Source: an uncultured Bacteroidota bacterium
Lineage (GTDB): Bacteria; Bacteroidota; Bacteroidia; Flavobacteriales; Flavobacteriaceae
NCBI GenBank assembly: GCA_902590705.1
Contig: CACIXU010000002.1
Span: forward strand, 124,001 to 188,000
Direction: 5' to 3'
Length of the DNA: 64,000 bases
The notes under the pieces were generated by a model. It was not told the DNA's origin. It worked only from the letters and a program-made list of their open reading frames with translations, and did no database searches. This document shows positions 563 to 20,110 of the stretch, in pieces (position 1 is the first letter of the stretch; each line of letters opens with the position of its first letter). The position numbers and the translations under genes are program-made.

Positions 563-655
563 TTTAAATAATTTATAGTTAATAATTACTAATATAACAA
601 AAACTACAAAAGAAGATTAGAATTACCAGAAATATAGAATCTAATGTCTATTTTT
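563..655. repeat. Cassette boundary 1: leader plus decayed recombinase-tail site
   Basis: On the minus strand 563-600 carries the shared leader (GTTATATTAGTAATTATTAAC then AAATTATTTAAA before the start at 562). From 620 the plus strand reads E-L-P-E-I-stop and then a decayed stretch ending MSIF, recognisable against E-V-P-E-L-K-E-E-D-M-P-I-F at 9341. The conserved GAGGATATGCC core is lost, so this copy is degenerate. Confidence 0.55.
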
Positions 656-1337: not shown

Positions 1338-1427
1338 TTGAAATAATTTATGATACTAAAATAACAAAACCTACAAAAGGGGTAAGATTCTACAGCACTT
1401 AAGAAGGAGGATATGCCCATGGTTTAA
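1338..1427. repeat. Cassette boundary 2: leader plus intact recombinase-tail site
   Basis: 1338-1380 holds the minus-strand leader of the DUF6090-like gene, including AAAACCTACAAAAGGGG. At 1386-1427 the plus strand encodes D-S-T-A-L-K-K-E-D-M-P-M-V-stop, matching the recombinase end E-V-P-V-L-K-E-E-D-M-P-M-I-stop codon for codon. The core GAGGATATGCC is at 1407-1417. Confidence 0.8.
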
Positions 1428-3591: not shown

Positions 3592-4080
3592 TTAGTTTTG
3601 GTTTTGAGCCTCTGTATATGCTGCAATTTCCATTTTTTCGATAGATTCGTCAAAATATCCTTGGACCACAACAATTTTTCCATTCTCCCATTTATAATCA
3701 AAATGTGTTGGAAGTGAGTACTCCTTACCTGTTGTCTTTCCTGTCCCAGTCCATGTTGACCATACATTTGACCATATTTCACCATTTGCAAAATAATTAG
3801 TATGCACATAAAGGTCTTTGATTTTTATATTATCATACAAAATATCATGATGAGCTTTAAACCCGGCAGTTAAATTTTCAAAACCAGTAAGTTCAGTATT
3901 ATTAACTCTTGTAATGACATCGTCAGCATAATATTGAGAAACTTCAAAGTCATTATTTTCATATTTTTCAACTAACATCTTAATATTTGAGGAAAGTTCG
4001 TCATCAGTCTTAAGAATTGATTGATTTGTATCGGCACAGCCAATGAGAATTGCAAAAATAACTACATATAAATATTTCAT
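3592..4080 (-). CDS. NTF2-like lipoprotein, paralogue of the 38-562 gene
   Basis: 162 aa, lipobox LIGC (Cys15). The landmarks match the 38-562 product: KYENNDFEVS near the start, KAHHDILY with the His-His pair, WSNVWSTWTGTG and FDYKWENGKIVVV. Together they suggest a SnoaL/DUF4440-type NTF2 fold held at a membrane. It has the complete leader upstream and its own terminator, making it one of the cleanest single-gene cassettes. The ligand or substrate is unknown. Confidence 0.75.
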   Translation of the reverse strand: MKYLYVVIFAILIGCADTNQSILKTDDELSSNIKMLVEKYENNDFEVSQYYADDVITRVNNTELTGFENLTAGFKAHHDILYDNIKIKDLYVHTNYFANGEIWSNVWSTWTGTGKTTGKEYSLPTHFDYKWENGKIVVVQGYFDESIEKMEIAAYTEAQNQN

Positions 4081-4178
4081 TTTAAATAATTTACGGTTAA
4101 TAAGTACTAATATAATAAAATCTATAGAAGGGTTTTGAATTACCGGAGCTAAAAAAGGAGGATATGCCTGTTATTTAG
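4081..4178. repeat. Cassette boundary 6: leader plus intact recombinase-tail site
   Basis: 4081-4120 is the leader. 4137-4178 reads E-L-P-E-L-K-K-E-D-M-P-V-I-stop in frame, with GAGGATATGCC at 4158-4168. The TAG stop (4176-4178) directly abuts the CTA that is the minus-strand stop of the next gene (4179-4181). Confidence 0.85.
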
Positions 4179-5363
4179 CTAATCTAAATTTTGATAAACT
4201 ATTCTCTCAAAAGATGTAAATAAGTTATAAGATTCCATATCATTAAAAGGTGATAAGAAATTCATATAGATTAATGCAAATTCATTTTTGAAATCAATAG
4301 TGAAGTAATTATTCCAACCACCCCAATATGCTGTGCCTGACGGTCTATATTTTGAATTTTGCTCATATGCCCATCCAAGAGTCCAGTTATCATAATTATC
4401 AAAAAAATTATCTTTATCACCACGAGGTCCTGACTCAATATACGTAACATTAACTGGTCTATGAATTTGATTGAATTTATTTAATTGTTTAGTATTTAGT
4501 TTATCAAAAGTTGATTCTTTTAAAACTCTCTTACCATCAGCATTTCCTTTATTTAGCATACACAATAAAAATTTAGAATAATCATCTGGAGATGAAAATA
4601 GTCCAGCTCCACCACTAAATTTATTTTTGATTTTTGGTCTTGTAAAATCTATTTTTTTTAATGTTTTAATTCCAGTTCTTTCGAATTTATTTACCATTAA
4701 ATAATGTAAACTATCGGGAACGTTAAACCAAGTACTGTTCATTTCGAGTGGTCCAGTAATGTATTTCCTTAAATAATCCTCAAGATTCATCCCGCTTACT
4801 CTTTCAATTAGAACCCCAACCCAGTCTATATTTGGACCGTACATAAAACTCTCACCGGCTTCGAATAATCGGGGTTTAGATTTTTCAATCCAACCTACTT
4901 TTTTCTTTAAGTTGTTCCAGTCTTTAATTTTTGGACTTGTAAATTCATAACCAAAACCTGCAGTATGAGTAAGTAGATGTCTAAGAGTAATACTCTTAGT
5001 AGGTTCTATTATTTCATTATTATTATTCAAAATTTTAATTGTAGACATTTCTGGTAAAATATTATCCAATGGGTCGTCTAACTTAATTTGACCATTTTCA
5101 ACTAATTGTAAGGCTGCAACTGAAGTAATTGCTTTTGTTAGTGATGCGACAGCAAAGATATTATTCTTTCTGATTGTATCTTTTCTATTCCACCTTGAAG
5201 GACCAAAAGAATAAAATTTCATCTTCCCAGACCTGTAAATTTTTCCCATTACAACGGGTGGAAGATTTGTTTTTTTTATCTCATCAATAATTAAGTTGTC
5301 TAAGTTTCGTGGATTATTAGTTTCACAGGAGACTAAAACTAAAATAATAAGAAGCTTTTTCAC
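4179..5363 (-). CDS. Serine hydrolase lipoprotein (class C beta-lactamase / family VIII esterase fold)
   Basis: 394 aa, lipobox LVSC (Cys13). The nucleophile motif SLTK (Ser74-Lys77) lies in AVASLTKAI; FMYGPNIDWVG (Tyr175) gives the second motif; YWGGWNNYF near the C-terminus gives the WGG form of the third motif. This combination fits EstB/family VIII carboxylesterases rather than true AmpC, so an ester or small cyclic amide substrate is more likely than antibiotic resistance. The start is GTG, directly after a short-form leader lacking the TTAACC part. Length is normal for the family. Confidence 0.85.
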   Translation of the reverse strand: MKKLLIILVLVSCETNNPRNLDNLIIDEIKKTNLPPVVMGKIYRSGKMKFYSFGPSRWNRKDTIRKNNIFAVASLTKAITSVAALQLVENGQIKLDDPLDNILPEMSTIKILNNNNEIIEPTKSITLRHLLTHTAGFGYEFTSPKIKDWNNLKKKVGWIEKSKPRLFEAGESFMYGPNIDWVGVLIERVSGMNLEDYLRKYITGPLEMNSTWFNVPDSLHYLMVNKFERTGIKTLKKIDFTRPKIKNKFSGGAGLFSSPDDYSKFLLCMLNKGNADGKRVLKESTFDKLNTKQLNKFNQIHRPVNVTYIESGPRGDKDNFFDNYDNWTLGWAYEQNSKYRPSGTAYWGGWNNYFTIDFKNEFALIYMNFLSPFNDMESYNLFTSFERIVYQNLD

Positions 5364-5941: not shown

Positions 5942-6039
5942 TTTAAATAATTTATGGTTAATAATTCGCTAATATAACAAAATCTAAAAAAGGGTTAGAA
6001 GTCCCTGAACTAAATCAAGAGGATATGCCGATGATATAA
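5942..6039. repeat. Cassette boundary 8: the most complete copy
   Basis: This boundary has all parts in order: leader (5942-5981), the AAAATCTAAAAAAGGG half, the in-frame tail E-V-P-E-L-N-Q-E-D-M-P-M-I-stop (5998-6039, core 6019-6029), then the next gene's terminator. It explains the deleted boundaries 4, 5 and 7 as losses of the middle block. Confidence 0.85.
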
Positions 6040-9306: not shown

Positions 9307-9379
9307 ACTTCTAAAATAACAAAACCTACAAAAGGGGATAGAAGTACCAGAACTTAAAGAGGAGGATATGCCTATTTTT
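9307..9379. repeat. Cassette boundary 12: last site of the left array
   Basis: Plus strand: CTAAAATAACAAAACC, TACAAAAGGGGATAGAAG and then in frame E-V-P-E-L-K-E-E-D-M-P-I-F (9341-9379; core 9362-9372). It is the closest copy to the recombinase end, but the usual stop is replaced: the frame runs on through the element end to a TAA at 9452-9454. Confidence 0.85.
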
Positions 9380-9388
9380 CAAAAAAAC

Positions 9389-9540: not shown

Positions 9541-9671
9541 ATTGTAAGTGTAGTCTAGCGGCTACGCTTGCTCCTCCTCTTGGGCTCGAACCAAGGACCC
9601 TCTGATTAACAGTCAGATGCTGTCTTCGACTAGCTACGCTTGCTAACCACTGAGCTATAAGTACTTACAAT
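9541..9671 (-). pseudogene. tRNA-Asn fragment at an element junction (att-like)
   Basis: 9566-9621 is identical to 20032-20087, i.e. the 3' part of tRNA-Asn from the acceptor 3' strand through the GTT anticodon into the D-stem. A 21-nt insertion (9622-9642) then interrupts the D-arm, the rest (9643-9657) still resembles the D-arm, and the 5' acceptor strand is replaced, so AGGAGGA has no partner and the tRNA should not function. Perfect 9-bp inverted repeats ATTGTAAGT (9541-9549) and ACTTACAAT (9663-9671) frame the whole piece. Confidence 0.75.
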
Positions 9672-9709
9672 TTATTTTAACATAGATGTTTAATTAAATT
9701 GCCATATAA

Positions 9710-10756
9710 GTGCCAAATAATAGCCTATCCTATCCCAAAGTTTGCAAAAGAAAAGACGGTAAATATTTTATAGATTTTAAACTCGACAACAAAAGATATA
9801 GATTGTTTAGTGGTAATATTATTGGATCGTCATTAAATCCAAATACATATCCTGTAAAACTTCGATATAGTAAAACACAAGAACTTGCAAAAGCTGTTTA
9901 TGATTTTATTGTTACCAATAAATATTCACTTGCAAAAAATAATAATGCTGTTTCAAATTTTGATAGTATTATAAATCAAAAACTGTCACAACCATTATCA
10001 TTAAAATATCGCAATGAATTAAAAAGATTAGGCTGTTTATTAAGAAAGGAATTAATTAAAAAAGGTAAAATTAAATTATCATTTATTGATTCGTTATCAT
10101 TGAGGTACAATAATAATACCAGTTATAATACAACAAGACGGCACGTAAATGTTTTGGTAAACTATTTACAGCAAAACAACTTTGATATTGATCAATCGAA
10201 ATTAAAAACAAGAAAGCAACAGGAAATACTTCACAGACCTATTAAAGACATTGTATCACTTTTAAACCGTATAAAAATATTTAATGAAAATTTGCACCTA
10301 TGCTGTCTTTTGACATATGGTTGCTTATTACGTCCGCATCAAGAAATTCGATTATTAAAGTGGTCTAGTTTTAGTGATGATTTAAAGTATATTAATCTTA
10401 GTGGAGGTAATGTAAAATCGAGACGTAATAGAATAGTTCCTGTACCATCATATATTCGTGAAATACTAATCAAAGGGGATAGCAAGAATAATATATTTTC
10501 AAACAGTCAAGAGCCATACAACAAAAGCTATTTTTCAGTGCTTTGGAGACGTTTTAAAAGGGTTAATCTGGATGTTGGAACAAGGGTGACTATCTATTCA
10601 TTCAGGCACTCTGGAGCAATAGATATTTTTAAAAGAACAGGTAGTATAACCAAGCTTCAGAAAGCTATGGGACACTCATCTATAAATGTTAGTTTGACCT
10701 ATTTAAGAGGATTAGAAGTACCAGTACTTAAAGAGGAGGATATGCCTATGATTTAA
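9710..10756 (+). CDS. Tyrosine recombinase/integrase
   Basis: 348 aa, GTG start. Catalytic residues: Arg208 (GCLLRPHQEI), Lys236 (GGNVKSRRN), Arg299-His300 in IYSFRHSGA with Tyr in place of the first His (common in phage-type integrases), His322 (MGHSS) and nucleophile Tyr331 (SLTYLRG). Residues about 80-165 are a SAM-like core-binding domain. It probably inserts the element at tRNA-Asn, and may also move cassettes, because its last 14-18 codons (10697-10756) are the sequence repeated between cargo genes. Its stop overlaps the stop of the convergent first cargo gene by two bases. It lacks the extra alpha helix region expected of class 1-like integron integrases as far as I can see. Confidence 0.92.
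   Translation: MPNNSLSYPKVCKRKDGKYFIDFKLDNKRYRLFSGNIIGSSLNPNTYPVKLRYSKTQELAKAVYDFIVTNKYSLAKNNNAVSNFDSIINQKLSQPLSLKYRNELKRLGCLLRKELIKKGKIKLSFIDSLSLRYNNNTSYNTTRRHVNVLVNYLQQNNFDIDQSKLKTRKQQEILHRPIKDIVSLLNRIKIFNENLHLCCLLTYGCLLRPHQEIRLLKWSSFSDDLKYINLSGGNVKSRRNRIVPVPSYIREILIKGDSKNNIFSNSQEPYNKSYFSVLWRRFKRVNLDVGTRVTIYSFRHSGAIDIFKRTGSITKLQKAMGHSSINVSLTYLRGLEVPVLKEEDMPMI
10697..10756 (+). repeat. Recombinase 3' end: the parental copy of the boundary site
   Basis: From the Thr-Tyr331 codons (ACCTAT) to the stop. Aligns with boundary copies: ACCTATTTAAGAGGATTAGA here against ACCTACAAAAGGGGATAGA at 9326, then GAAGTACCAG and GAGGATATGCC (10736-10746). Six in-frame copies exist in the window (1386, 4137, 5998, 9341, 10715, 11298). 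Confidence 0.85.
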
Positions 10757-11262
10757 TTATTATTTCTCGGTTTGGAGAATTGATTCATATAATCAATTTT
10801 TCCATTTATAAATCTGAATGTTTCCATCCAATTGACCCCTGCTGATGTTCCATCTTGTGATACAATATTCGCGTTGTCCCATAAAAGTACCCACTCGTCT
10901 CCATTTTCATCTAAAAGTGCAAGATTTACTGCAATCTGATAATCCTCAACTTCAACAGAAGAATAGCTCTCCATATATTTTACACACTCATCTTTCCCCT
11001 CTAATCTTGAACCATCTTCAAGAGCAAAAACAACATTATCTGAAAGGTAACTTCCAGCCTTTTCATAATCTTTATTGATTATGGATTGAATCATTTCTTG
11101 GACTTTGACTACTAATTCTGTATTTCCAATTTCAAAGTCATCAAGATAAGTTGCCTCATAAATGTATTTTACATCGTTTGTTGTTTCTTGAGATTTATTT
11201 TTTTGAGGCTGGCTGCAAGAAATAAAAAGTACAAAAGTCAATAATATAAATAGTTTTTTCAT
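10753..11262 (-). CDS. NTF2-like (SnoaL-type) lipoprotein, first cassette next to the recombinase
   Basis: 169 aa from ATG 11262; lipobox FISC (Cys16). NKDYEKAGSYLSDNVVFAL, the short turn GSRLEGKDECVKYM and the terminal strand WMETFRFINGKIDYMNQF are typical of SnoaL/DUF4440 NTF2-like proteins. It is a more distant relative of the three NTF2-like genes in the left array. The frame extends upstream, but MKKLFILL starts the signal. The stop TAA (10753-10755 on the plus strand as TTA) overlaps the recombinase stop. Function unknown. Confidence 0.75.
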   Translation of the reverse strand: MKKLFILLTFVLFISCSQPQKNKSQETTNDVKYIYEATYLDDFEIGNTELVVKVQEMIQSIINKDYEKAGSYLSDNVVFALEDGSRLEGKDECVKYMESYSSVEVEDYQIAVNLALLDENGDEWVLLWDNANIVSQDGTSAGVNWMETFRFINGKIDYMNQFSKPRNNN

Positions 11263-11342
11263 ATAAGTTAATATAAATTTAATAGTGAACAATTTACGAA
11301 TTATTCCCTGAGCTTAGTGAAGAGGATATGCCTGTTATTTAA
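11263..11342. repeat. Cassette boundary 13: intact recombinase-tail site
   Basis: 11298-11342 reads E-L-F-P-E-L-S-E-E-D-M-P-V-I-stop in frame, core GAGGATATGCC at 11322-11332. The stop TAA (11340-11342) overlaps the minus-strand stop of the next gene (11339-11341) with exactly the same one-base offset as at the recombinase end. The leader part is diverged (AACAATTTACGAATTA). Confidence 0.8.
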
Positions 11343-14300
11343 TTTACTGTTATTGTCCCTACCATACCTGCGTGTAAAGAACATATGTAGTAGTAAGTAC
11401 CTGCTTGAGTGGGTGTCCACGAAACAGTTCCATTAGTAGTCCCATTATTTGTAACTCCACTGATAGTATTTGCAGTGCCAGTTCCCTGTACTGTTTTTAG
11501 ATAAAATGGATGTCCAGGAGCATTTACCGCAAAGTTTACAGTATCTCCAACTTTTATTGTTACTGAAGGATCATTTCCTGAAACATTTCCGTTTCTATCT
11601 GTACCACTTAAGGTATAATCTGATGCGTTACTTGCAGTTACATTAATAGTGAATGAAGAGGGACAGGTTCCCCAAACTGGTTTGTTTGTATTTGTGAGCG
11701 CAGAATTTCTTGAAAAATCCTCAGGTGTTGAGGTTGAATTGGCAATTTGAACATTAAGGACACACCAACTTGATAAGTCTTGATTAAATGCTGTTGCATC
11801 CTTAAACATCAATTGCATTTTTAATACATTTGATGTATCCCAGCTCCCGATATCTTGGTTAAAGGTGGGATTTGATAGAAACATTTGTCCCATATCCGTT
11901 ACATTGGAGGTATTCCATCCACCAATATCCTGATTAAAAGAATTAGCATAAAAAAACAACCCCCCCATATTTGTGACATTTGAGACATTCCATCCACCAA
12001 TATTTTGATTAAAAGAGATAGCTGATGCAAACATATAGAACATATTTGTCACTTTTGAGACATCCCAAGAGCTGATTTTACCGTTAAATGCTCTTGCATT
12101 ATTAAACGCTCTATACATATTAGTAACTTTTGAAGTATCCCAATTCATATAATTATTTGAAAATGAAGCAGGTTCTCCATTATTGAAATTTCTTGCCTCA
12201 TTAAACATATTACTCATTGTATGAACATTAGAGGTATCCCAGAAACCAATATATGAGTTGAAAGAATTATTGTCTTTAAATAAATCGTTCATATTTGTAA
12301 CCTTAGTTGTACATAAATTCACATTTCCGTTTGCTATCTGACCTGCTATACTTGAGTTATCAACTACTGTATAAAGCGTTCCACTAATTGTAGCTGTATC
12401 ACCAACACTTGCATTAGGACATTTACAAGTACCATTTTCGAAATAGATTGAGGACGATGTTGAGGTAGTTGTTCCAGAATTATTTCCTCCACCACCTGTA
12501 GAAGTAGTAGTTCCTGTATTACCTCCACCACCAGTAGAGGTAGTTGTTCCAGTATTACCTCCACCTCCTGTAGGTGTTGTAGTTCCAGTTGTTGAGGTAG
12601 TAGTCCCGGTAGTTGATGTTGTTGTCCCTGAATTATTTCCTCCTCCTCCTGTAGAGGTAGTCGTTCCAGTATTTGTAGATGTGCTTGTACCTGTGGTATT
12701 GGTTGTAGTCGTTGAGGTAGTGGTACCGGTAGTTGATGTTGTTGTTGAAGATGTAGAAGCTATAACCTGTATTGCTCCACTAATAGAAGCAGAACATCCA
12801 TTTGTGTCTGAAACAGTTATTGTGTAAGGGTATGTACCAATTGGAATAATTGATTGGGAAATAATATTGTGATAATTAGGGTCGCCTAACTGAAGTCCTG
12901 GAGGTGCAGTATTTCTAATACGTAATTCACGAATATTGCTCTGTGGAGTAACATCCAAAACCTCAATTGGGCTATTTACAAGATTAGTTTGAAAACTATT
13001 AGCATTAGATATATAACGAACATCAAGGTTTTTACCTTGTTCAATAATCACAGTACTTCCATCAGTGGACAATCTCGCAGGATATGTTAATTGATCAAAC
13101 CTAATAAATGTTGAACAATTATTTGTCGATGTTGTTGTCCCAGTATTACTTCCTCCTCCACCTGTTGAACTAGTTGTACCAGTATTACCTCCTCCACCTG
13201 AAGGTGTTGCAGTTCCAGTAGTTGAGGTGGTTGTGTCTGTTGTAGGAGAATTACACTCTGATTCTGGTTTTACCCTGGTTATAAAAGAAATGATGCCTTC
13301 TCCATATTGAATTGTATGGTGAACTGAACTAACAGTCGTATCGGTAATTACTCCTGTGTATATATAACTAAGTTTGCCGCTACCTCCCCAAACTGGATCA
13401 CTAATATCACAATCTCCAGCATCGTTGTCGCTATTAATTGCAGAATTATCTACGTTGCATTTGTATTCAATTCCATAATAATTTGAATACGTCCCAGCAT
13501 TTTGACTTGTAACGACTGAACCATCTTTTAAAGTAATTCGAACTGGTAGAAGTCTAGGAAGTGGAGCTAGATTTCCGGTGCCTAAGGGAGTATTTATTAG
13601 GGAATCAAAACCTCTTAGCTTATTGAACTGGAGATTATATGATTGTATATTTTCACCCAGACACACATTTTGCTCGATTCGTCTATTTCCTCCTGAAATA
13701 CTTTCACCATCAATTATAGTTGCATTACAAACATTGGAGCTTATTTGTAAACTTAAATTATCCTTAGCACCTGATGAAACTGAGGTAATCGATAAATTTA
13801 CCGTTTTTAGTCCTGAGTCAACAAGATTTAAGGCTATGTTAGCCTGTATACTTATGTCATTATAGTCTTGATCTGATGAGGTTCCACTTCTATCTTCAAA
13901 ACTTAATTTTGCTGTATGTAATGTATCACCTCTTGCAGAATCACTGTTTTGGGGATCTATTGAAAAAGTAAACCATAGCTCATTTTCAGTATTTTTAGTA
14001 ATTTCTCCAATGTTGGATCCATTGATAAGAGTCTCACTACAGTCATCATATATCATACTAAACTTCACAAATTCACCTTGGAGGTCATTGGTGAATGTAA
14101 AAACTGCGGTGTATTCATTTTTTACACTTGAAAACATTTTCCCGTTTACCCTATCTAAAAATGATTGACCACTCAATGTGGAAGTGCTTGATCCTGTCTC
14201 ACTTGCTACGGTTGATGTAATTGTTCCAGCGAAAGACAGGAAACTATTTTTAAAAATATCTGAAATCTGTTCTGTTGTGGATGATGCAGTTACAGCCTCA

Positions 14301-15205
14301 AAAGGAGGAATGATCAATCCATTTTCAGCACGTTGAGATATTGATTTAGTCATTGCCCCTGAAATATTTAGTTGGCCACTTATATCAGATATCTCTGATT
14401 CGTTTTTTGGTGGAGTCTTATTAGCTGGCAATGAAGCCATTTTCATACTAATATTTGTAGGGGAGGCAAAATTAATATTTGTCATCAATGCAAAATCTCC
14501 AATTACAATTGAGCTAGGACTAATAGGGGTTATTTTAGTAAATATCTTCGATTGAACAACACCATTAATAAGCGTTGTCATTAGAACATTTAAATTGATG
14601 TCTACAGCCATTCTTATCACCTTAATATCTTTTGCAGAAGAATCTCCACCTATTTCAAACTCCCAATCTCCGACAAGATTTTTAGCTACTTCATAGTCAA
14701 ATTTTGCACTCACATCTTTATTTCCATCAAGTGTTATTGTTTTTGGATTAGTTGTATCACTAGGATCATTATCCCAATAAAAGAAAGAATATTGATCAGC
14801 AGGGACTGCAGTTAACTCAACTGAAGCTCCGTGAGTAAAGCTTGTCCCACCTCCAACAACTTGTTTTTGAACCTCTCCATTTCCTGTGACATTGATATTA
14901 ATGTTATAGGCGGTCTTTTCAAAGTTTGCAACCAGGTTTGTGTTCTGATCTGGATTAAGTGTAAGTGGATTATTGGAATAGGTTTGGTTTGTACTTGAAT
15001 CTGTCCAGCTAACAAATGTATATCCTGTCTGTGGAGTTGCACTGAATGTAACTGCTGCACCAACTGCGTATGATCCGGCTTTGAAATCAATACTCCCCAT
15101 TGAGGAATCAGCAACAGATGCATTTACAACAACAGTAGGATCATCTTCTTTTTTACAAGTAGATAGAACCAATAGAATAGATAAAACTAGAAAAAACCTT
15201 TTCAT
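11339..15205 (-). CDS. Large surface lipoprotein: InlB-type repeats, BspA/DUF285 repeats, C-terminal cupredoxin
   Basis: 1288 aa, lipobox LSTC (Cys17). Residues about 28-170 hold two divergent InlB B-repeats (GYTFVSWTDS; QYSFFYWDND). The middle is unassigned. Two Thr/Ser/Gly-rich linkers (about 653-692 and 815-918) precede a DUF285/BspA-like run (about 970-1180) with repeated DTSNVTNM and FNQDIGGW units. The last about 100 residues form a plastocyanin-like copper domain with VKVGDTV-like strand, His in APGHPFY and the C-H-M ligand loop YYICSLHAGM. Probably displayed on the cell surface, binding copper or transferring electrons while the repeats bind partners. By far the largest cargo gene. 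Confidence 0.85.
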   Translation of the reverse strand: MKRFFLVLSILLVLSTCKKEDDPTVVVNASVADSSMGSIDFKAGSYAVGAAVTFSATPQTGYTFVSWTDSSTNQTYSNNPLTLNPDQNTNLVANFEKTAYNININVTGNGEVQKQVVGGGTSFTHGASVELTAVPADQYSFFYWDNDPSDTTNPKTITLDGNKDVSAKFDYEVAKNLVGDWEFEIGGDSSAKDIKVIRMAVDINLNVLMTTLINGVVQSKIFTKITPISPSSIVIGDFALMTNINFASPTNISMKMASLPANKTPPKNESEISDISGQLNISGAMTKSISQRAENGLIIPPFEAVTASSTTEQISDIFKNSFLSFAGTITSTVASETGSSTSTLSGQSFLDRVNGKMFSSVKNEYTAVFTFTNDLQGEFVKFSMIYDDCSETLINGSNIGEITKNTENELWFTFSIDPQNSDSARGDTLHTAKLSFEDRSGTSSDQDYNDISIQANIALNLVDSGLKTVNLSITSVSSGAKDNLSLQISSNVCNATIIDGESISGGNRRIEQNVCLGENIQSYNLQFNKLRGFDSLINTPLGTGNLAPLPRLLPVRITLKDGSVVTSQNAGTYSNYYGIEYKCNVDNSAINSDNDAGDCDISDPVWGGSGKLSYIYTGVITDTTVSSVHHTIQYGEGIISFITRVKPESECNSPTTDTTTSTTGTATPSGGGGNTGTTSSTGGGGSNTGTTTSTNNCSTFIRFDQLTYPARLSTDGSTVIIEQGKNLDVRYISNANSFQTNLVNSPIEVLDVTPQSNIRELRIRNTAPPGLQLGDPNYHNIISQSIIPIGTYPYTITVSDTNGCSASISGAIQVIASTSSTTTSTTGTTTSTTTTNTTGTSTSTNTGTTTSTGGGGNNSGTTTSTTGTTTSTTGTTTPTGGGGNTGTTTSTGGGGNTGTTTSTGGGGNNSGTTTSTSSSIYFENGTCKCPNASVGDTATISGTLYTVVDNSSIAGQIANGNVNLCTTKVTNMNDLFKDNNSFNSYIGFWDTSNVHTMSNMFNEARNFNNGEPASFSNNYMNWDTSKVTNMYRAFNNARAFNGKISSWDVSKVTNMFYMFASAISFNQNIGGWNVSNVTNMGGLFFYANSFNQDIGGWNTSNVTDMGQMFLSNPTFNQDIGSWDTSNVLKMQLMFKDATAFNQDLSSWCVLNVQIANSTSTPEDFSRNSALTNTNKPVWGTCPSSFTINVTASNASDYTLSGTDRNGNVSGNDPSVTIKVGDTVNFAVNAPGHPFYLKTVQGTGTANTISGVTNNGTTNGTVSWTPTQAGTYYYICSLHAGMVGTITVN
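12450..12765 (-). repeat. Low-complexity Thr/Gly coding repeats
   Basis: Tandem copies of a unit encoding GTTTSTGGGGN and its variants within the surface lipoprotein, about 8 units, with a smaller block at about 13130-13245. Near-identical units at DNA level imply slippage or recombination, so copy number may vary between strains. They form flexible linkers before the DUF285 region. Confidence 0.8.
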
Positions 15206-15239
15206 CGGGTTTACGGCTAATTAATTACAATATAATGAA
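15206..15239 (-). promoter_or_regulatory. Diverged cassette leader
   Basis: Minus strand TTCATTATATTGTAATTAATTAGCC upstream of ATG 15205 (given in parts: TTCATTATATTG, TAATTAATTAGCC). It matches the leader before 18890 (TTCATTATATTGTAAT) and is related to the standard leader TTATATTAGTAATTATTAACC. Confidence 0.45.
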
Positions 15240-15947
15240 TCAATTCTTACTTATTTCAAAATCAATTAATTTAGTCGTTGCATCAAGAAGGTCTAGATAA
15301 TTTCTGTACATTGAAATAAATGTTTCTATCCAAATTCTATACTCCGAATAATAAAATAGCACTAATTCTGATTTATAATAATTTTTGTTTATTGTAAAAT
15401 TTTCAATCTTACGTTCAGGTATTAAATATATTAGATTCCTTTTATCTACTTTCCTCTCAGTTACAACAATAAATTGCGATAAATCTCTTCCAAAATCCAT
15501 TCCAAAATCATCCATTACTCTGTCACCAAATTCCTTTCTCCTATTTAAATTATCGTAAATGATTAATAGTTTTGATCTCAAATCATCAGAACTAATTAAT
15601 TCCATACTACCCGTGTTAAGTAAACGTAGAAATGGTCCCATTTGAGGAAAAAATGAAACTATACCATTTTGTTTTAAACTTGAAAAATTTTTTACCAGTT
15701 CTTCCTGACTCAATTTTACTTTATTATTAAAATCATTAATTAAAATTCCAGCTGAGTTAAAACATTTTTTTTGTACATCAATGACCTCTTTTAATTGATC
15801 TTTATCAATAAGAATAGATTCCTTTAATTCTTTTAGAATAACATTCTTCTGATTTAATCTTGACTTTTTTTCAAGATAAGAATCTATACTCAGCGAGAGC
15901 AAAACACTCACGATAATCAAAGAGCTTTCTAGTAAATATCTTTTCAT
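15240..15947 (-). CDS. DUF6090-like membrane-anchored protein
   Basis: 235 aa. One N-terminal membrane helix (about 7-21, LESSLIIVSVLLSLSID), then a charged helical domain. It shares the pattern S-F-F-P-Q-x-G and NxGSMELI / LLSSNGLENI with the gene at 17107-17817, so these two are close paralogues and the 648-1337 product is more distant. No catalytic residues seen. Function unknown. Confidence 0.7.
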   Translation of the reverse strand: MKRYLLESSLIIVSVLLSLSIDSYLEKKSRLNQKNVILKELKESILIDKDQLKEVIDVQKKCFNSAGILINDFNNKVKLSQEELVKNFSSLKQNGIVSFFPQMGPFLRLLNTGSMELISSDDLRSKLLIIYDNLNRRKEFGDRVMDDFGMDFGRDLSQFIVVTERKVDKRNLIYLIPERKIENFTINKNYYKSELVLFYYSEYRIWIETFISMYRNYLDLLDATTKLIDFEISKN

Positions 15948-16041
15948 CTTAAAATTAATTTAAACTGTCAATATACTGAATCTCTAAAAATCTTTTCTAA
16001 TACTATTTTGACTAGTAACTGAATAATTTTAATATATTTTA

Positions 16042-16075
16042 TATTTTAGTTGACCTTAACCAAAAATTATTTCAA
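16042..16075 (+). promoter_or_regulatory. Cassette leader in plus orientation
   Basis: CCTTAACCAAAAATTATTTC then AA and ATG 16076. This matches the minus-strand consensus TTAACCATAAATTATTTAAA-ATG, showing that the leader travels with the gene rather than with the array strand. Confidence 0.6.
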
Positions 16076-17092
16076 ATGAAAAAAATCTTCTTCTTATCTA
16101 TAATTTTGTTTATAGTAGGCTGTAACAGCAAAGAAAAAAAACCAAATTCAAATATTGAGATATATGATGAATCAATAATCTCTGTAATTGATGAAATGGC
16201 AGAATTTGAAATATTAGCAGACTCTATTAGTTTGCCTGAAGGGCCTCTTTGGGATGAAAAATCTAATTCACTTTTATTTGTTGATGTAATTAATAATAAT
16301 GTTTTAAAATGGAATGAGTCAGAAGGTGTTTCAAACTATATTATGCCTAGCGGAAATACTGGATATGCTCCTAACCTAGGCAAAGGTGTGCTTGGGGCTA
16401 ACGGAATGGGATTTGATGCTCAGGGAAATTTAGTTTTATGCCAACACGGCGATAGAAGATTAGCAATCATTGAAAATGAATCTAACCTTAATCCTAGTTT
16501 CACCACACTAATTGATAATTATGAAGGAAAAAAATTAAATAGTCCCAATGACCTTGTTTTTTCCAAAACCGGTGAAATTTATTTTACTGATCCTGCTTTT
16601 GGTTTTTTTGATCTTAATACTTTCGAATTCGTAGAAACACCGCTAAGAGAATTAGACTTTTTCGGTGTCTATAAGTTTGACACTAAAAGTAAAACTTTGT
16701 CATTAGTTAGTGACTCTGTTGATCTTCCTAACGGGATAGGACTATCCCCAGATGAAAAAACCCTATATGTCAATAAAATGGGTATGCTCGATCAAAATCC
16801 AAAAGTTTTAAAAATAAATCTAGAAGATTTATCTTCAGAAGTGCTATTCGATGGTAAAGAATTATCTGGTAAATATGAAGGTAATTTTGATGGAATGGTC
16901 ATTCATTCCTCAGGCAATATATTTACCTCAGGCCCTGGGGGGCTTTTAATTATTTCACCACAGGGGAAGTTACTGGCTAAAATTAATTTTGGTCATATTA
17001 CAAACTGTACCTTTGATACGAAAGAAGAATTTCTCTATGTAACAGGATTTTTAAATAACCCAAAAGTATTTAGATTAAAATTGAAGGCATAG
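16076..17092 (+). CDS. SMP-30/gluconolactonase-like lipoprotein
   Basis: 338 aa, lipobox IVGC (Cys16). Beta-propeller of the SMP-30/gluconolactonase/LRE type: metal-ligand Glu in SLPEGPLWDE, GANGMGFDAQGNL, Asn in NSPNDLVFSKTGEIYFTDP and LPNGIGLSPDEKTLYVN, then Asp in NFDGMVIHSSGNIF. Such enzymes open sugar lactones with a divalent metal; a periplasmic anchored form could act on sugar oxidation products. Plus-strand gene with the cassette leader. Confidence 0.88.
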   Translation: MKKIFFLSIILFIVGCNSKEKKPNSNIEIYDESIISVIDEMAEFEILADSISLPEGPLWDEKSNSLLFVDVINNNVLKWNESEGVSNYIMPSGNTGYAPNLGKGVLGANGMGFDAQGNLVLCQHGDRRLAIIENESNLNPSFTTLIDNYEGKKLNSPNDLVFSKTGEIYFTDPAFGFFDLNTFEFVETPLRELDFFGVYKFDTKSKTLSLVSDSVDLPNGIGLSPDEKTLYVNKMGMLDQNPKVLKINLEDLSSEVLFDGKELSGKYEGNFDGMVIHSSGNIFTSGPGGLLIISPQGKLLAKINFGHITNCTFDTKEEFLYVTGFLNNPKVFRLKLKA

Positions 17093-17106
17093 CTGCTTTA
17101 ATAGCT

Positions 17107-17817
17107 TTATGATTTTAATTCATCTTCAATCAAAATAGTAATTTCATCAAGAGCAATATTTACGTTTTTTAGTCCAGACTTATATTGGTTTACGTATAAA
17201 ATAACTTGATTATAAAAATTTAAAACATCTTTAGATTTGTAATAATTGTTCCCTATAAAATAATTTTCTATTTCAAGAATTGTTATGGGTAAATCTAGCG
17301 ATAGGTTTCTCTTAGTTTTTTCAGATGGAATAACTATAATTTCATTTGACAGCGACATATAAGACTTCCACCTCATTTCATCCAAAATTGGGTCAGCAGC
17401 AGCTGTTCTCATCAATAAGGATTCATAAACATAAATAAGTTTTTTTTTAAGCGTATCGTCTTTAATATTTTCTAATCCGTTAGACGAAAGCAACTGATTA
17501 TATATCCCATATTGTGGGAAAAAAGAAATATTCATTGTTCTTAAATCAGAAAATTTTTCAGCTATTATAGCTTTGTCTAATTTCGCTTTACTGCCTATAT
17601 GATCTTTGAGTAAAATTCTTGATGATTCTAAAGTAAGGTCTAAAGTTTTCTGAACATTTTTGAGTTGATCAATATCCTCCCTAATGTTAGTTAGTAATTG
17701 ATTTAAAAGCTTATTTTTTAGGTTGATCTCCGAAAGTCGCTCTCTATAGGATTCAAGTCCAAATGCTCCCAAAACACTTAAAAAAATTAACAACCCCTCA
17801 ATTAAGTATTTTTTCAT
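17107..17817 (-). CDS. DUF6090-like membrane-anchored protein
   Basis: 236 aa. N-terminal helix about residues 6-20 (IEGLLIFLSVLGAFGLESY), then helices with MNISFFPQYGIYNQLLSSNG, the same local pattern as the 15240-15947 product. It ends 15 bases from the convergent gluconolactonase-like gene. Function unknown. Confidence 0.7.
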   Translation of the reverse strand: MKKYLIEGLLIFLSVLGAFGLESYRERLSEINLKNKLLNQLLTNIREDIDQLKNVQKTLDLTLESSRILLKDHIGSKAKLDKAIIAEKFSDLRTMNISFFPQYGIYNQLLSSNGLENIKDDTLKKKLIYVYESLLMRTAAADPILDEMRWKSYMSLSNEIIVIPSEKTKRNLSLDLPITILEIENYFIGNNYYKSKDVLNFYNQVILYVNQYKSGLKNVNIALDEITILIEDELKS

Positions 17818-17867
17818 TTTTTAAATATTATGTTTAACTATTACTAATCCTAATATAATAAAACCTA
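17818..17867. repeat. Cassette boundary 14: leader fused directly to a gene stop
   Basis: Plus strand ACTAATCCTAATATAATAAAACCTA: the AAAACCTA at the start of the boundary consensus runs straight into the CTA that is the stop (17865-17867) of the next minus-strand gene. The whole tail site is missing, as if the join had been made at ACCTA. Confidence 0.6.
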
Positions 17868-18890
17868 ATTACAGCTTATTTCAAATTCAGTCCAATCCTT
17901 ACCATTTGTGTGGGAGTTTGGAAAGTAAAAACACTTCTTTGTTCCATTGGCAAAGTTGAGTTTCTTTCTAAAAGCGCTTGGAACGTGAGCGCCTGTAGGG
18001 AGTATTTGATGATCATAATCAAAAATAACATCAACCCTAACATTAATATCTGCATTGTCAGCTGCAGCCCAATCCCTTACCTGACCTTCTAATTGCGCCC
18101 ACTCATATCTGTTTAAATAATAGTGCTGTAAAACGCAATTTAAAAATGAGAATGTTGCAGTTAGATTTGCAACTGTATCATCAAACGATGCAGCTGGTGC
18201 TAAATGCCCTTTGTCCCAATCATTATTTGCATAGTCATCTATATTGGATGTAAATACACTATCAACTGAAAAAAAATCATATCCTGAGCGACTAACATTC
18301 GATGGTACATTTCTAACTGTATACTCCAACCAATTAGGCTGCTCATAAATCTCATTATATGATACTTTGAAAATACTTCCTTGAATTATATAATCAGTTC
18401 TATAGTTTCTTCCATTGAATAGTTTTTTGGGGATAGCATTTATTGAATCAAGTTTGTTTTGAAGTACTACAAAGGATTCATATAATCTATTGTATTTTTC
18501 CTGTTGAGAGGAATCATTTTTAAGTGTTTCTAATTCACTCGAAAGGTTTGATAATTGAGAAGATAAATTATTACTCTCAAGCGATACGGCAATTAATTCT
18601 CCTCTAATATTTTTTATGCTATCACTTAAAATTTCGAACTTTTGGTTTGTAAGATTATTGGTATTGTCAATTAATGTATTTATCGTGGAAAGTAAATTAT
18701 CATAGTCTTGTGACTGTTTAAGATTTGAGTCATTTATAGTGGAACTTAAACTATCAATTTGTTTTATTAGAGAATCTATTTCTTGTTGTTGAGATTGATT
18801 CACTTGCTTCAAAGCATTTACATCATCCTCAAAATTTTTACAGGAGAAAATAAAAGTAATTAATATGAAAAATGAAATTGTGTTTTTCAT
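17865..18890 (-). CDS. Lipoprotein DNA/RNA non-specific endonuclease with coiled coil
   Basis: 341 aa from ATG 18890, lipobox IFSC (Cys17). Residues about 20-150 are heptad-like coiled coil (QQQEIDSLIKQIDSLSS). The C-terminal domain has the NUC/EndA signature as DKGHLAPA (catalytic His229; the usual DRGH has Arg where this has Lys), then NCVLQHYYLNRYEWAQLE, with the metal-binding Asn region. Likely a surface-tethered nuclease that degrades extracellular nucleic acid for nutrients or defence. The frame extends 12 codons upstream, but MKNTISFF begins the signal. Confidence 0.85.
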   Translation of the reverse strand: MKNTISFFILITFIFSCKNFEDDVNALKQVNQSQQQEIDSLIKQIDSLSSTINDSNLKQSQDYDNLLSTINTLIDNTNNLTNQKFEILSDSIKNIRGELIAVSLESNNLSSQLSNLSSELETLKNDSSQQEKYNRLYESFVVLQNKLDSINAIPKKLFNGRNYRTDYIIQGSIFKVSYNEIYEQPNWLEYTVRNVPSNVSRSGYDFFSVDSVFTSNIDDYANNDWDKGHLAPAASFDDTVANLTATFSFLNCVLQHYYLNRYEWAQLEGQVRDWAAADNADINVRVDVIFDYDHQILPTGAHVPSAFRKKLNFANGTKKCFYFPNSHTNGKDWTEFEISCN

Positions 18891-18925
18891 TGGACTGGTT
18901 AATATTACAATATAATGAATTATCA
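18891..18925 (-). promoter_or_regulatory. Diverged cassette leader
   Basis: Minus strand ATTCATTATATTGTAAT then ATTAACCAGTCCA and ATG 18890. Same form as before 15205, related to the consensus leader. Confidence 0.5.
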
Positions 18926-18960
18926 ATAATGTTAATAAGCTCTAATACAATAGGTTGATT

Positions 18961-19173
18961 ATTAAAAATAAAGTATATAACTTCGTATAACATTACAGTA
19001 ATACGCCATACTATATTGTTTTTTTAAGGTTTCTTTAAAACCTTTTTACTATAAAATTTCTATAAAATTTATTACAAATATTTCTGCAATAACATACTAC
19101 ATTATATAGTATCAATACAGACTATTTACGTTTTATAATTAAATACGTTATATAATAAAGTAACATATAGTAT
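18961..19173. promoter_or_regulatory. AT-rich control region with dyads before the RPKG gene
   Basis: ATTACAGTAAT (18992-19002) is an 11-bp palindrome. ATATAGTAT occurs at 19104-19112 and 19165-19173 and inverted at 19008-19016; the last copy covers the start codon of the gene at 19172. This arrangement suits an autoregulated operator or a recombination-accessory site. Confidence 0.4.
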
Positions 19174-19387
19174 GAGACCAAAAGGAGTGCCAAATAAACT
19201 AACATCTGCAGTAAAATATAAACTAGACGCAATTATAGATCAAACTATGGAGTCTATTAATGTTGACACACTTACAAATGCTGAAAAAATAAAATTAATA
19301 GAAGTCTGTTTACGATACGTAATGCCACGTAAGACTACTGATTCAGTTCCACTGCCCAATGACATACAAATACAAATCGTCAAATAG
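19172..19387 (+). CDS. Small RPKG-motif protein of mobile elements
   Basis: 71 aa. Starts MRPKGVPNKLT, the (G)RPKGxxNK N-terminus typical of small phage and mobile-element proteins, often AT-hook-like DNA binders, followed by a helical segment (AVKYKLDAIIDQTMESI). It could bind the ATATAGTAT repeats in front of its own gene, one of which overlaps the ATG. The family function is not established. Confidence 0.65.
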   Translation: MRPKGVPNKLTSAVKYKLDAIIDQTMESINVDTLTNAEKIKLIEVCLRYVMPRKTTDSVPLPNDIQIQIVK

Positions 19388-19394
19388 TAATTTT

Positions 19395-19431
19395 TATTAT
19401 ATTGGAGATTATTAACCATAAATTATTTAAA
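19395..19431 (+). promoter_or_regulatory. Cassette leader in plus orientation
   Basis: TATTATATTGGAGATTATTA then ACCATAAATTATTTAAA directly before ATG 19432. It is nearly identical to the minus-strand leaders in the left array, so this gene is an inverted unit. Confidence 0.75.
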
Positions 19432-19893
19432 ATGAAGAATATCATATTCTTAATATTACTTCCACTCTTAGTTTTTTCTCAACAGCCAAGGAATATGAAA
19501 GGAGTGAAAAAAGCTGATGCTAGAATTATTGATTTACTTGAAAATTATGGAAAAGCTTATGAATATGAGGATTTTGAAAGTATCGCAAGTTACTTTGACT
19601 ATCCAACTACTTTCAAAGCTCCGATTGGAAATACAATTTTAAAAGACAAAGAAGAATTAATCAAATTTTATAAGGTAGCGAGAAGTGCCGAAGTAGTTGG
19701 TGATGACTATTGGTATTCACTTTATAAAAAAATTAAACCCATATGGATAAATAAAGATTTATGCATTATGGATGCATTTTACAACAGATATGGCAAAAAA
19801 TATAACTTAGTTCACGAAGGGAGAGCTCTTTATATGTTCAGAAAAACAGAAAATGGCTGGAAAATTTTTGATGTAACTATAGTCCCCAATTAA
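19432..19893 (+). CDS. Secreted NTF2-like protein
   Basis: 153 aa from ATG 19432, signal peptide MKNIIFLILLPLLVFS-Q. LLENYGKAYEYEDFESIASYFDYPTTF and the final HEGRALYMFRKTENGWKIFDVTIVP are typical of DUF4440/SnoaL-like NTF2 folds. It is the fifth NTF2-like gene of the region. The frame is open 10 codons upstream, but that stretch is the leader itself. Function unknown. Confidence 0.75.
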   Translation: MKNIIFLILLPLLVFSQQPRNMKGVKKADARIIDLLENYGKAYEYEDFESIASYFDYPTTFKAPIGNTILKDKEELIKFYKVARSAEVVGDDYWYSLYKKIKPIWINKDLCIMDAFYNRYGKKYNLVHEGRALYMFRKTENGWKIFDVTIVPN

Positions 19894-19920
19894 TAATGGA
19901 TTTTATAGTAAATAAGATCA

Positions 19921-19955
19921 GTGCCAAATGAGTGCCAAAAAATTGACTAAATTTA
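19921..19955. repeat. Element right-end repeat, right copy
   Basis: GTGCCAAATGAGTGCCAAAA followed by AATTGACTAAATTTA. Aligns with 9389-9422. The recombinase gene also begins within an AGTGCCAAAT string (9709-9718), which may be chance. Confidence 0.65.
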
Positions 19956-19973
19956 TCTTAAACTAAATTGTAA

Positions 19974-20004
19974 GAAAAAACCCCTACTTAACGTAAGGGT
20001 TTAA
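19974..20004. terminator. Terminator before tRNA-Asn
   Basis: AAAAAA, then CCCCTAC-TTAAC-GTAAGGG with one mismatch in a 7-bp stem, then TTTAATTTT. It occupies the same place relative to tRNA-Asn sequence as the 9511-9525 hairpin does in the left copy. Confidence 0.6.
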
Positions 20005-20037
20005 TTTTACTGGGTTTGTAAGCGGTTACTTGCTTGC

Positions 20038-20110
20038 TCCTCCTCTTGGGCTCGAACCAAGGACCCTCTGATTAACAGTCAGATGCTCTAACCAACTGAG
20101 CTAAGGAGGA
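20038..20110 (-). tRNA. tRNA-Asn(GUU)
   Basis: 73 nt, full cloverleaf on the minus strand: acceptor TCCTCCT/AGGAGGA, D-stem GCTC/GAGC, anticodon arm TCTGA-CTGTTAA-TCAGA with anticodon GTT, T-stem CTTGG/CCAAG with TTCGAGC loop. CCA is not encoded. It is the intact attachment target of the element to its left; the 3' 50 nt are duplicated at 9572-9621. Confidence 0.96.

Follow-up and report, generated by a model that had tools for sequence, protein, structure and literature searches.

In marine flavobacteria, the 3' end of a tyrosine recombinase gene appears to act as a docking site at which gene cassettes are exchanged, the recombinase itself being the probable integrase of a tRNA-inserted element; we put the probability of this reading at roughly 0.6. 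The analysis set out from 64,000 nucleotides of an uncultured member of the Flavobacteriaceae (hereafter the window; features in Table 1) and took in related loci from other genomes. Direct support from the sequences consists of the site with its base frequencies, a peak in the offset between site and cargo stop, cassettes shared behind different tails, a variable recombinase C-terminus and a frame of tRNA copies. In the proposed mechanism, the joins would represent one recurring recombination site, extending from about -23 to +9 around GATATGCC and overlapping the last codons and the stop of the recombinase (offset 0 is the first base after GATATGCC throughout). A cassette, mostly of one gene, would carry TATGRTTTA at its start and a copy of the recombinase tail at its end, and would be exchanged at or beside GATATGCC. 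Docking behind the recombinase would replace the last two or more residues and the stop while the gene remains open. Cargo would lie on the opposite strand, reading toward the site, and would often end on the TTA within TATGRTTTA, giving a 2-base overlap of stops. The order within an element would be tRNA copy, recombinase, cassettes, intact tRNA.

Table 1. Positions of the tail sites, genes and tRNA sequences in the window.
Feature	Position	Strand	Evidence and remarks
Tail site at recombinase end	10726..10756	+	Base frequencies (200 sites) and breakpoint analyses; left part 10726-10738, core GATATGCC 10739-10746, right block TATGATTTA 10747-10755
Free tail site	11312..11342	+	Core 11325-11332, right block 11333-11341
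Free tail site	4148..4178	+	Core 4161-4168
Free tail site	1397..1427	+	Core 1410-1417
Free tail site	6009..6039	+	Core 6022-6029
Free tail site	9352..9382	+	Core 9365-9372; directly upstream of tRNA copy and recombinase
Conserved 24-mer on promoter side of cargo genes, just before tail	9311..9334	+	Window has 8 copies in all
Tyrosine recombinase gene, 348 aa	9710..10756	+	PF00589, E 5.9e-11; GTG start as listed
Cargo, SnoaL-like protein, 169 aa from ATG	10753..11262	-	PF12680, E 4.3e-07 on the 179-aa reading; stop TTA 10753-10755 within right block, offset +6
Cargo, 1288-aa protein	11339..15205	-	Stop TTA 11339-11341 in right block, offset +6
Cargo, beta-lactamase-family protein	4179..5363	-	PF00144, E 3.9e-41; stop CTA abuts tail stop, offset +10
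Defective tRNA-Asn copy, upstream of recombinase	9570..9636	-	91% identical over 68 nt to the intact tRNA
Intact tRNA-Asn (gtt)	20036..20110	-	Putative other end of the tRNA-inserted stretch 9570-20110

The window holds six copies of a 44-base repeat, one of which is the 3' end of the recombinase gene; in relatives, too, the tail is found both at recombinase ends and as free copies. At the recombinase end the TAA stop (10754-10756) overlaps the stop of the facing cargo gene by two bases, the same overlap recurs at the next boundary (TAA 11340-11342), and at 4176-4181 the two stops abut (TAG 4176-4178, then CTA 4179-4181). These joins, first described in an earlier note, were found as described there on reading the sequence, and the list of open reading frames gives matching cargo ends (10753..11292, 11339..15205 and 4179..5363, all on the minus strand). 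The 2-base overlap alone was considered as proof of the joining nucleotide and rejected, since TTAA, which can be read as a stop from either strand, yields it free when the two frames are so aligned. The overlap is thus partly built in: it follows from a conserved block, TATGRTTTA, that stands after GATATGCC and contains one stop per strand (cargo strand, TTA; tail strand, TAA or TAG). As to the earlier contention that two different cargo genes are joined to the tail at the same nucleotide, the conserved block, with which most cassettes start, accounts for the recurring geometry, and the distances are variable. The informative quantity is the number of cargo reading frames that end at the overlap, not the overlap per se.

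Tail sites were collected from the window and related loci by means of a motif profile, matches above E 0.02 being dropped. Of the 208 sites obtained, 200 had at least 7 of 8 core matches and at least 30 nt of downstream sequence and were kept (76 recombinase ends and 124 free sites). Among the free sites GATATGCC is conserved at 96-100% per position, a near-invariance that is partly imposed, as the sites were found with a profile of the motif and filtered at 7 or more matches out of 8. Free sites need code for nothing, yet the right block TATGRTTTA is conserved in them at 72-97% per position (A in 44% and G in 41% at the fifth position); from +10 onward they lack a clear consensus, no base exceeding about half. 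Leftward, conservation of the tail site extends to about -23. In 88 of the 124 free sites and 62 of the 76 recombinase ends, the tail frame has a stop at +7 to +9. Searches with a tail pattern gave matches in 11 of 22 genus genomes and no control matches. The site has only a modest dyad, centered at GAT|ATG (0.42 against a mean of 0.27, sd 0.04, with a runner-up at 0.38). Folding of the 124 free sites was no better than that of shuffled sequences on either strand (20 shuffles each), the mean folding-energy z being 0.09 and 0.20 for the interval from -45 to +12 and 0.02 and 0.04 for that from -70 to +20.

Distances between tail and cargo stops were plotted for antisense reading frames with an ATG start, at least 80 aa and a stop between -160 and +150, which 120 of the 200 sites possess. 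The distribution, which the earlier note had proposed as a check, displays a sharp peak at the predicted offset of +6 (33 of 120 sites); 8 stops fall at -1, and no other offset has more than 3. The remainder comprises 12 stops elsewhere between 0 and +12, one below -12 and 66 beyond +12. A broad spread, named beforehand as what would speak against a precise join, is thus partly seen, in those 66 stops, and coexists with the sharp peak. An unconstrained frame would lead one to expect similar numbers of cargo stops at +6 and -1. A cargo-strand stop is on offer at +6 in 128 of the 200 sites and at -1, where the preceding C is used, in 114. The 33 to 8 ratio departs from this expectation (p = 1.1e-4), as does the ratio of 24 to 4 at those 49 sites where each of the two frames contains a stop triplet (p = 1.8e-4). 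The preference for +6 (p about 1e-4) therefore reflects more than stop availability, and the excess of cargo reading frames ending there is real; the 33 cargos are not wholly independent, since some are visibly related to each other. Reading frames ending at +6 resemble whole genes (for example ...HAGMVGTITVN at 11339 and ...THKIIKD in locus L112). The window sites at 4168 and 6029 have offsets of +10 and +46, respectively.

The position of the join was approached through 18 pairs of sites that have the same cassette behind different tails (5 of 23 pairs sharing the right side were dropped because the upstream side was also common). Relative to matched controls, drawn from other site pairs of these loci, the 18 pairs show excess identity at +3, over +6 to +13 and at -9, the last position being identical in 16 of 18 pairs versus 0.58 in the control. 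Control level is reached at -10 to -14 and, apart from a small excess at -15 and -16, mostly also further left. In the pooled likelihood the best edge is -9, at the margin of GATATGCC and 15 bases before TTAA, three log units ahead of the next position. Taken singly, the pairs have best edges anywhere between -38 and +23, and the six distal-edge pairs favor -20 to -18, not -9. From the other side, 111 pairs of free sites sharing their upstream sequence have background identity from 0 to +3 and a slight excess only at +4. From these comparisons the join appears to lie between -9 and +3, that is, 3-15 bases before TTAA, so that TTAA would travel with the cassette. The precise join that the earlier note placed at or just before TTAA is supported as such by the +6 peak; TTAA is not the joining point.

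Ordinary crossing-over within the 3' end of the recombinase gene, the best-conserved stretch common to the elements, could also produce new pairings of recombinase and cargo, the edge at GATATGCC then marking only the limit of conservation. This explanation by homologous recombination, which we consider unlikely without dismissing it, predicts edges far to the left, and 8 of the 18 pairs have theirs at -26 or further. However, 12 of the same 18 pairs are only 50-70% identical over the 30 bases that precede the core; in 10 at least one tail has no more than 36 nt of detectable recombinase homology (one tail has none), which is scant for homologous exchange. In addition, free sites retain a conserved right block even though it lies outside the homology arm. 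Taking these observations together with the edge at -9, we regard site-specific exchange at the tail as the more probable explanation.

The last codons of the recombinase gene overlap the tail site. Five residues that we take to be catalytic (R208, K236, R299, H322 and Y331) are invariant in nine relatives. Relatives were detected in 14 of 299 family genomes (E <= 1e-20) and in 10 of 22 genus genomes (E <= 1e-10), several of the latter being tails or pieces only. Among public genomes, 189 stretches, with titles mostly naming Flavobacteriales or other Bacteroidetes, encode relatives; 80 of these were used and gave 79 loci. The window genome, whose assembly is 83% complete, has a single recombinase. 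Collections of 50,697 phage records and 72,556 plasmid records yielded no relative at E <= 1e-10, and none was confirmed in viral contigs; general phage-integrase families match weakly related parts of the protein (PHROG 1, E 2.1e-21). The residues after the DMP motif vary with the sequence that follows (MV in 27 of 75 recombinase ends, MI in 15, the rest diverse), and the stop lies at +10 in 61 of the 75 and at +58 in the furthest case. If the join is as placed, these residues and the stop would belong to the cassette. The N-terminal part is highly variable (amino acid identity 0.27-0.41 over residues 10-170), and the use of identical codons for identical residues rises from 0.42-0.45, reaching 0.49-0.57 over the last quarter of the gene and 0.67 in the last five codons. 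Three genomes have two divergent recombinases each (L097/L150, L101/L115 and L130/L155) with nearly identical 3' parts: DNA identity within these pairs, mostly 0.25-0.65 in the first 175 codons, is 0.82-1.00 over a terminal part that begins near codon 251 or 301. Their 3' ends have thus been swapped or homogenized, so that homologous exchange does happen here, a point in favor of the crossing-over explanation. Site-specific exchange at the tail would, in our preferred reading, be catalyzed by the tyrosine recombinase of the same loci; neither an excised circle nor an empty site was seen.

Of the 73 loci whose sequence extends 100 nt or more upstream of the recombinase, 69 have a tRNA-like match on that side (Met 30, Asn 15, Ala 11, His 7, Arg 6), usually at a distance of 37-107 nt. 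In the window this is the defective tRNA-Asn copy, which Rfam RF00005 recognizes with 31 bits at 9579-9636. A downstream tRNA matching the upstream copy was found at 25 loci, window included, in the same orientation in all 25; the span so bounded measures 3.1-11.0 kb (median 6.8). Since tRNA copies frame the loci in this manner, the recombinase looks like the tRNA-directed integrase of tRNA-inserted elements. At the 25 bounded loci, 8 free tails lie inside the span, 11 lie outside on the upstream side and none lies beyond the downstream end within the available sequence; in the window, the arrays left of the recombinase are outside the present element. Tail sequences bear no likeness to one another according to tRNA type (within minus between 0.010, a value attained by 46 of 300 shuffles). 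A tail that is constant across tRNAs, in combination with such a variable N-terminal part of the recombinase, is odd if one protein recognizes both tail and tRNA. Two practically identical recombinases, each behind a tRNA-Ala copy, were also seen (L144, L161, one Aequorivita MAG), and L161 has an extra tRNA-Ala copy followed by only the first 60 or so bases of a recombinase.

Free tails might alternatively be remnants left without any exchange, if elements inserted serially at one tRNA, their recombinases eroded from the 5' side and the adjacency of tail and cargo simply passed down by descent. The graded homology of free tails to the recombinase gene, from 24 nt to the whole gene (detectable in 105 of 125 free sites), is what erosion would leave; the distribution of free sites inside and outside the tRNA-bounded stretches and the broken recombinases in L046 and L048 agree with it as well. 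We nonetheless judge this explanation improbable, because tail and cargo are inherited separately. Thus, at L045 and L057 the cassette is 96-98% identical and the 30 bases preceding it 60%. Moreover, the same cassette is found behind an intact recombinase in one genome and behind a free tail in another. Loci L112 and L118 have two cassettes in common, arranged in different order, and the relation holds both ways: the cassette behind the recombinase in one stands behind a free tail in the other. One of the two measures 481 nt at each locus; its identity is 0.89, against 0.62 and 0.48 in the flanks. L154 and L113 have a cassette in common (272 and 270 nt, identity 0.95), one of its flanks being shortened by a contig end. 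L154 also has a cassette in common with L116, which lies on a contig labelled as a Rhodobacteraceae MAG and has the recombinase and a tRNA-Ala frame; mis-binning or transfer could be responsible.

Cassettes stand in tandem beside the recombinase, as in integrons. Of 70 free sites at 35 loci with a recombinase end, 52 are located downstream of it, 11 upstream and 7 on the other strand. The left part of these free sites resembles the recombinase of its own locus (0.788 versus 0.675 after shuffling, reached in 0 of 5000 trials; the test omitted 52 of 125 free sites, for which the locus had no recombinase end or the open-frame cut-off differed). The window genome contains 26 matches to the 72-base cassette end, in four places (contigs C2, 10; C1, 6; C5, 5; C21, 5). 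On C21 (L168, about position 3620, reverse strand), as in L044 and L087, sites are followed by an identical cassette start, AAACTTTACAAGTATTA, which is thus common to three genomes. On the promoter side of the cargo genes, the conserved 24-mer has 8 matches in the window against 0.00 expected from shuffles. A sequence common to this side, CTAATATAACAAAACCTACAAAAG, occurs in 8 copies (window 564-629 and similar); cargo genes have this side in common and often the beginning of the signal peptide too, and several boundaries retain the CTAATATAACAAAACCTACAAAAG repeat with the tail core lost.

The host Xer system, acting on the tail through dif-like sites, is a further candidate for the enzyme, and a very improbable one. 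The right block TATGRTTTA is faintly like the XerD arm of dif. The recurrent dif-like sequence of the genus, TATAATTAATATTATGTAAA or its variant ending in CAA, was found by a pattern search for a 28-bp dif-like site in at least 12 of 22 genus genomes (total pattern counts were not above control) and is a candidate for the group's dif site; the tail shows no match to it. In Acinetobacter plasmids, dif modules are known shuffling units bounded by short recombination sites (PMC13141974). The tail cassettes resemble these modules, as there described, in being units so bounded. They differ in that XerC/XerD and pdif operate in the plasmids, whereas the tail did not match the candidate dif-like sequence from the 22 genomes.

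Docking at the recombinase tail, as proposed here, can be set beside several known systems. Integrons likewise combine a tyrosine recombinase with an adjoining series of cassettes, most of them holding one gene and all having a recombination site of their own; their cassettes are also common to several genomes, and arrays without a recombinase occur elsewhere in the genome. In contrast to integrons, the tail sites show no hairpin folding of the attC kind beyond that of shuffled sequences, the docking site is within the 3' end of the recombinase gene, and cargo mostly faces the recombinase. The integron integrase model TIGR02249 scored four of the recombinases at 18.9, 33.5, 20.7 and 24.1 bits, with a cut-off of 265. 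As two defining features, IntI and a folding attC, were looked for and not found, the loci are classed as tRNA-inserted elements with integron-like behavior rather than as integrons. Tycheposons of Prochlorococcus, reported also from Methylophilaceae, combine a border tRNA, a tyrosine recombinase and cargo, as far as the available portion of PMC10872708 goes. The present loci likewise have same-orientation tRNA copies at both borders, a PF00589 recombinase and cargo; the cassette-exchange site in the recombinase tail has no counterpart in that portion. The "suicidal" integrases of archaeal SSV-type viruses have their recombination site inside the integrase gene (PMC8371274). Their gene is split on integration, whereas here it would stay whole, only the last residues and the stop being replaced. 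A survey of the open-access literature, with preprints and most subscription papers outside its scope, yielded no recognized description of a tail-docking cassette system.

The stop overlap from which this analysis started is the ordinary part of the finding, being due to the conserved TTAA. Its interesting part is that the TTAA block appears to form part of a site within the recombinase gene where recombination would exchange cassettes. A more far-reaching version, offered tentatively and with the odds somewhat against it, is that of a separately arisen integron-like system in which all sites would be copies of the recombinase 3' end, capture would rewrite the C-terminus, and cassettes would be born when recombinases lying beside a gene are worn away until only the tail is left. 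To our knowledge, the origin of integron cassettes is still open. If the proposed mechanism is correct, it would provide a direct handle on cassette origin, because cassette sites still resemble the recombinase end that was their source. Streamlined marine flavobacteria would then own a cassette-exchange system mounted on tRNA-inserted elements, in which every captured gene alters the end of the enzyme that captures it.
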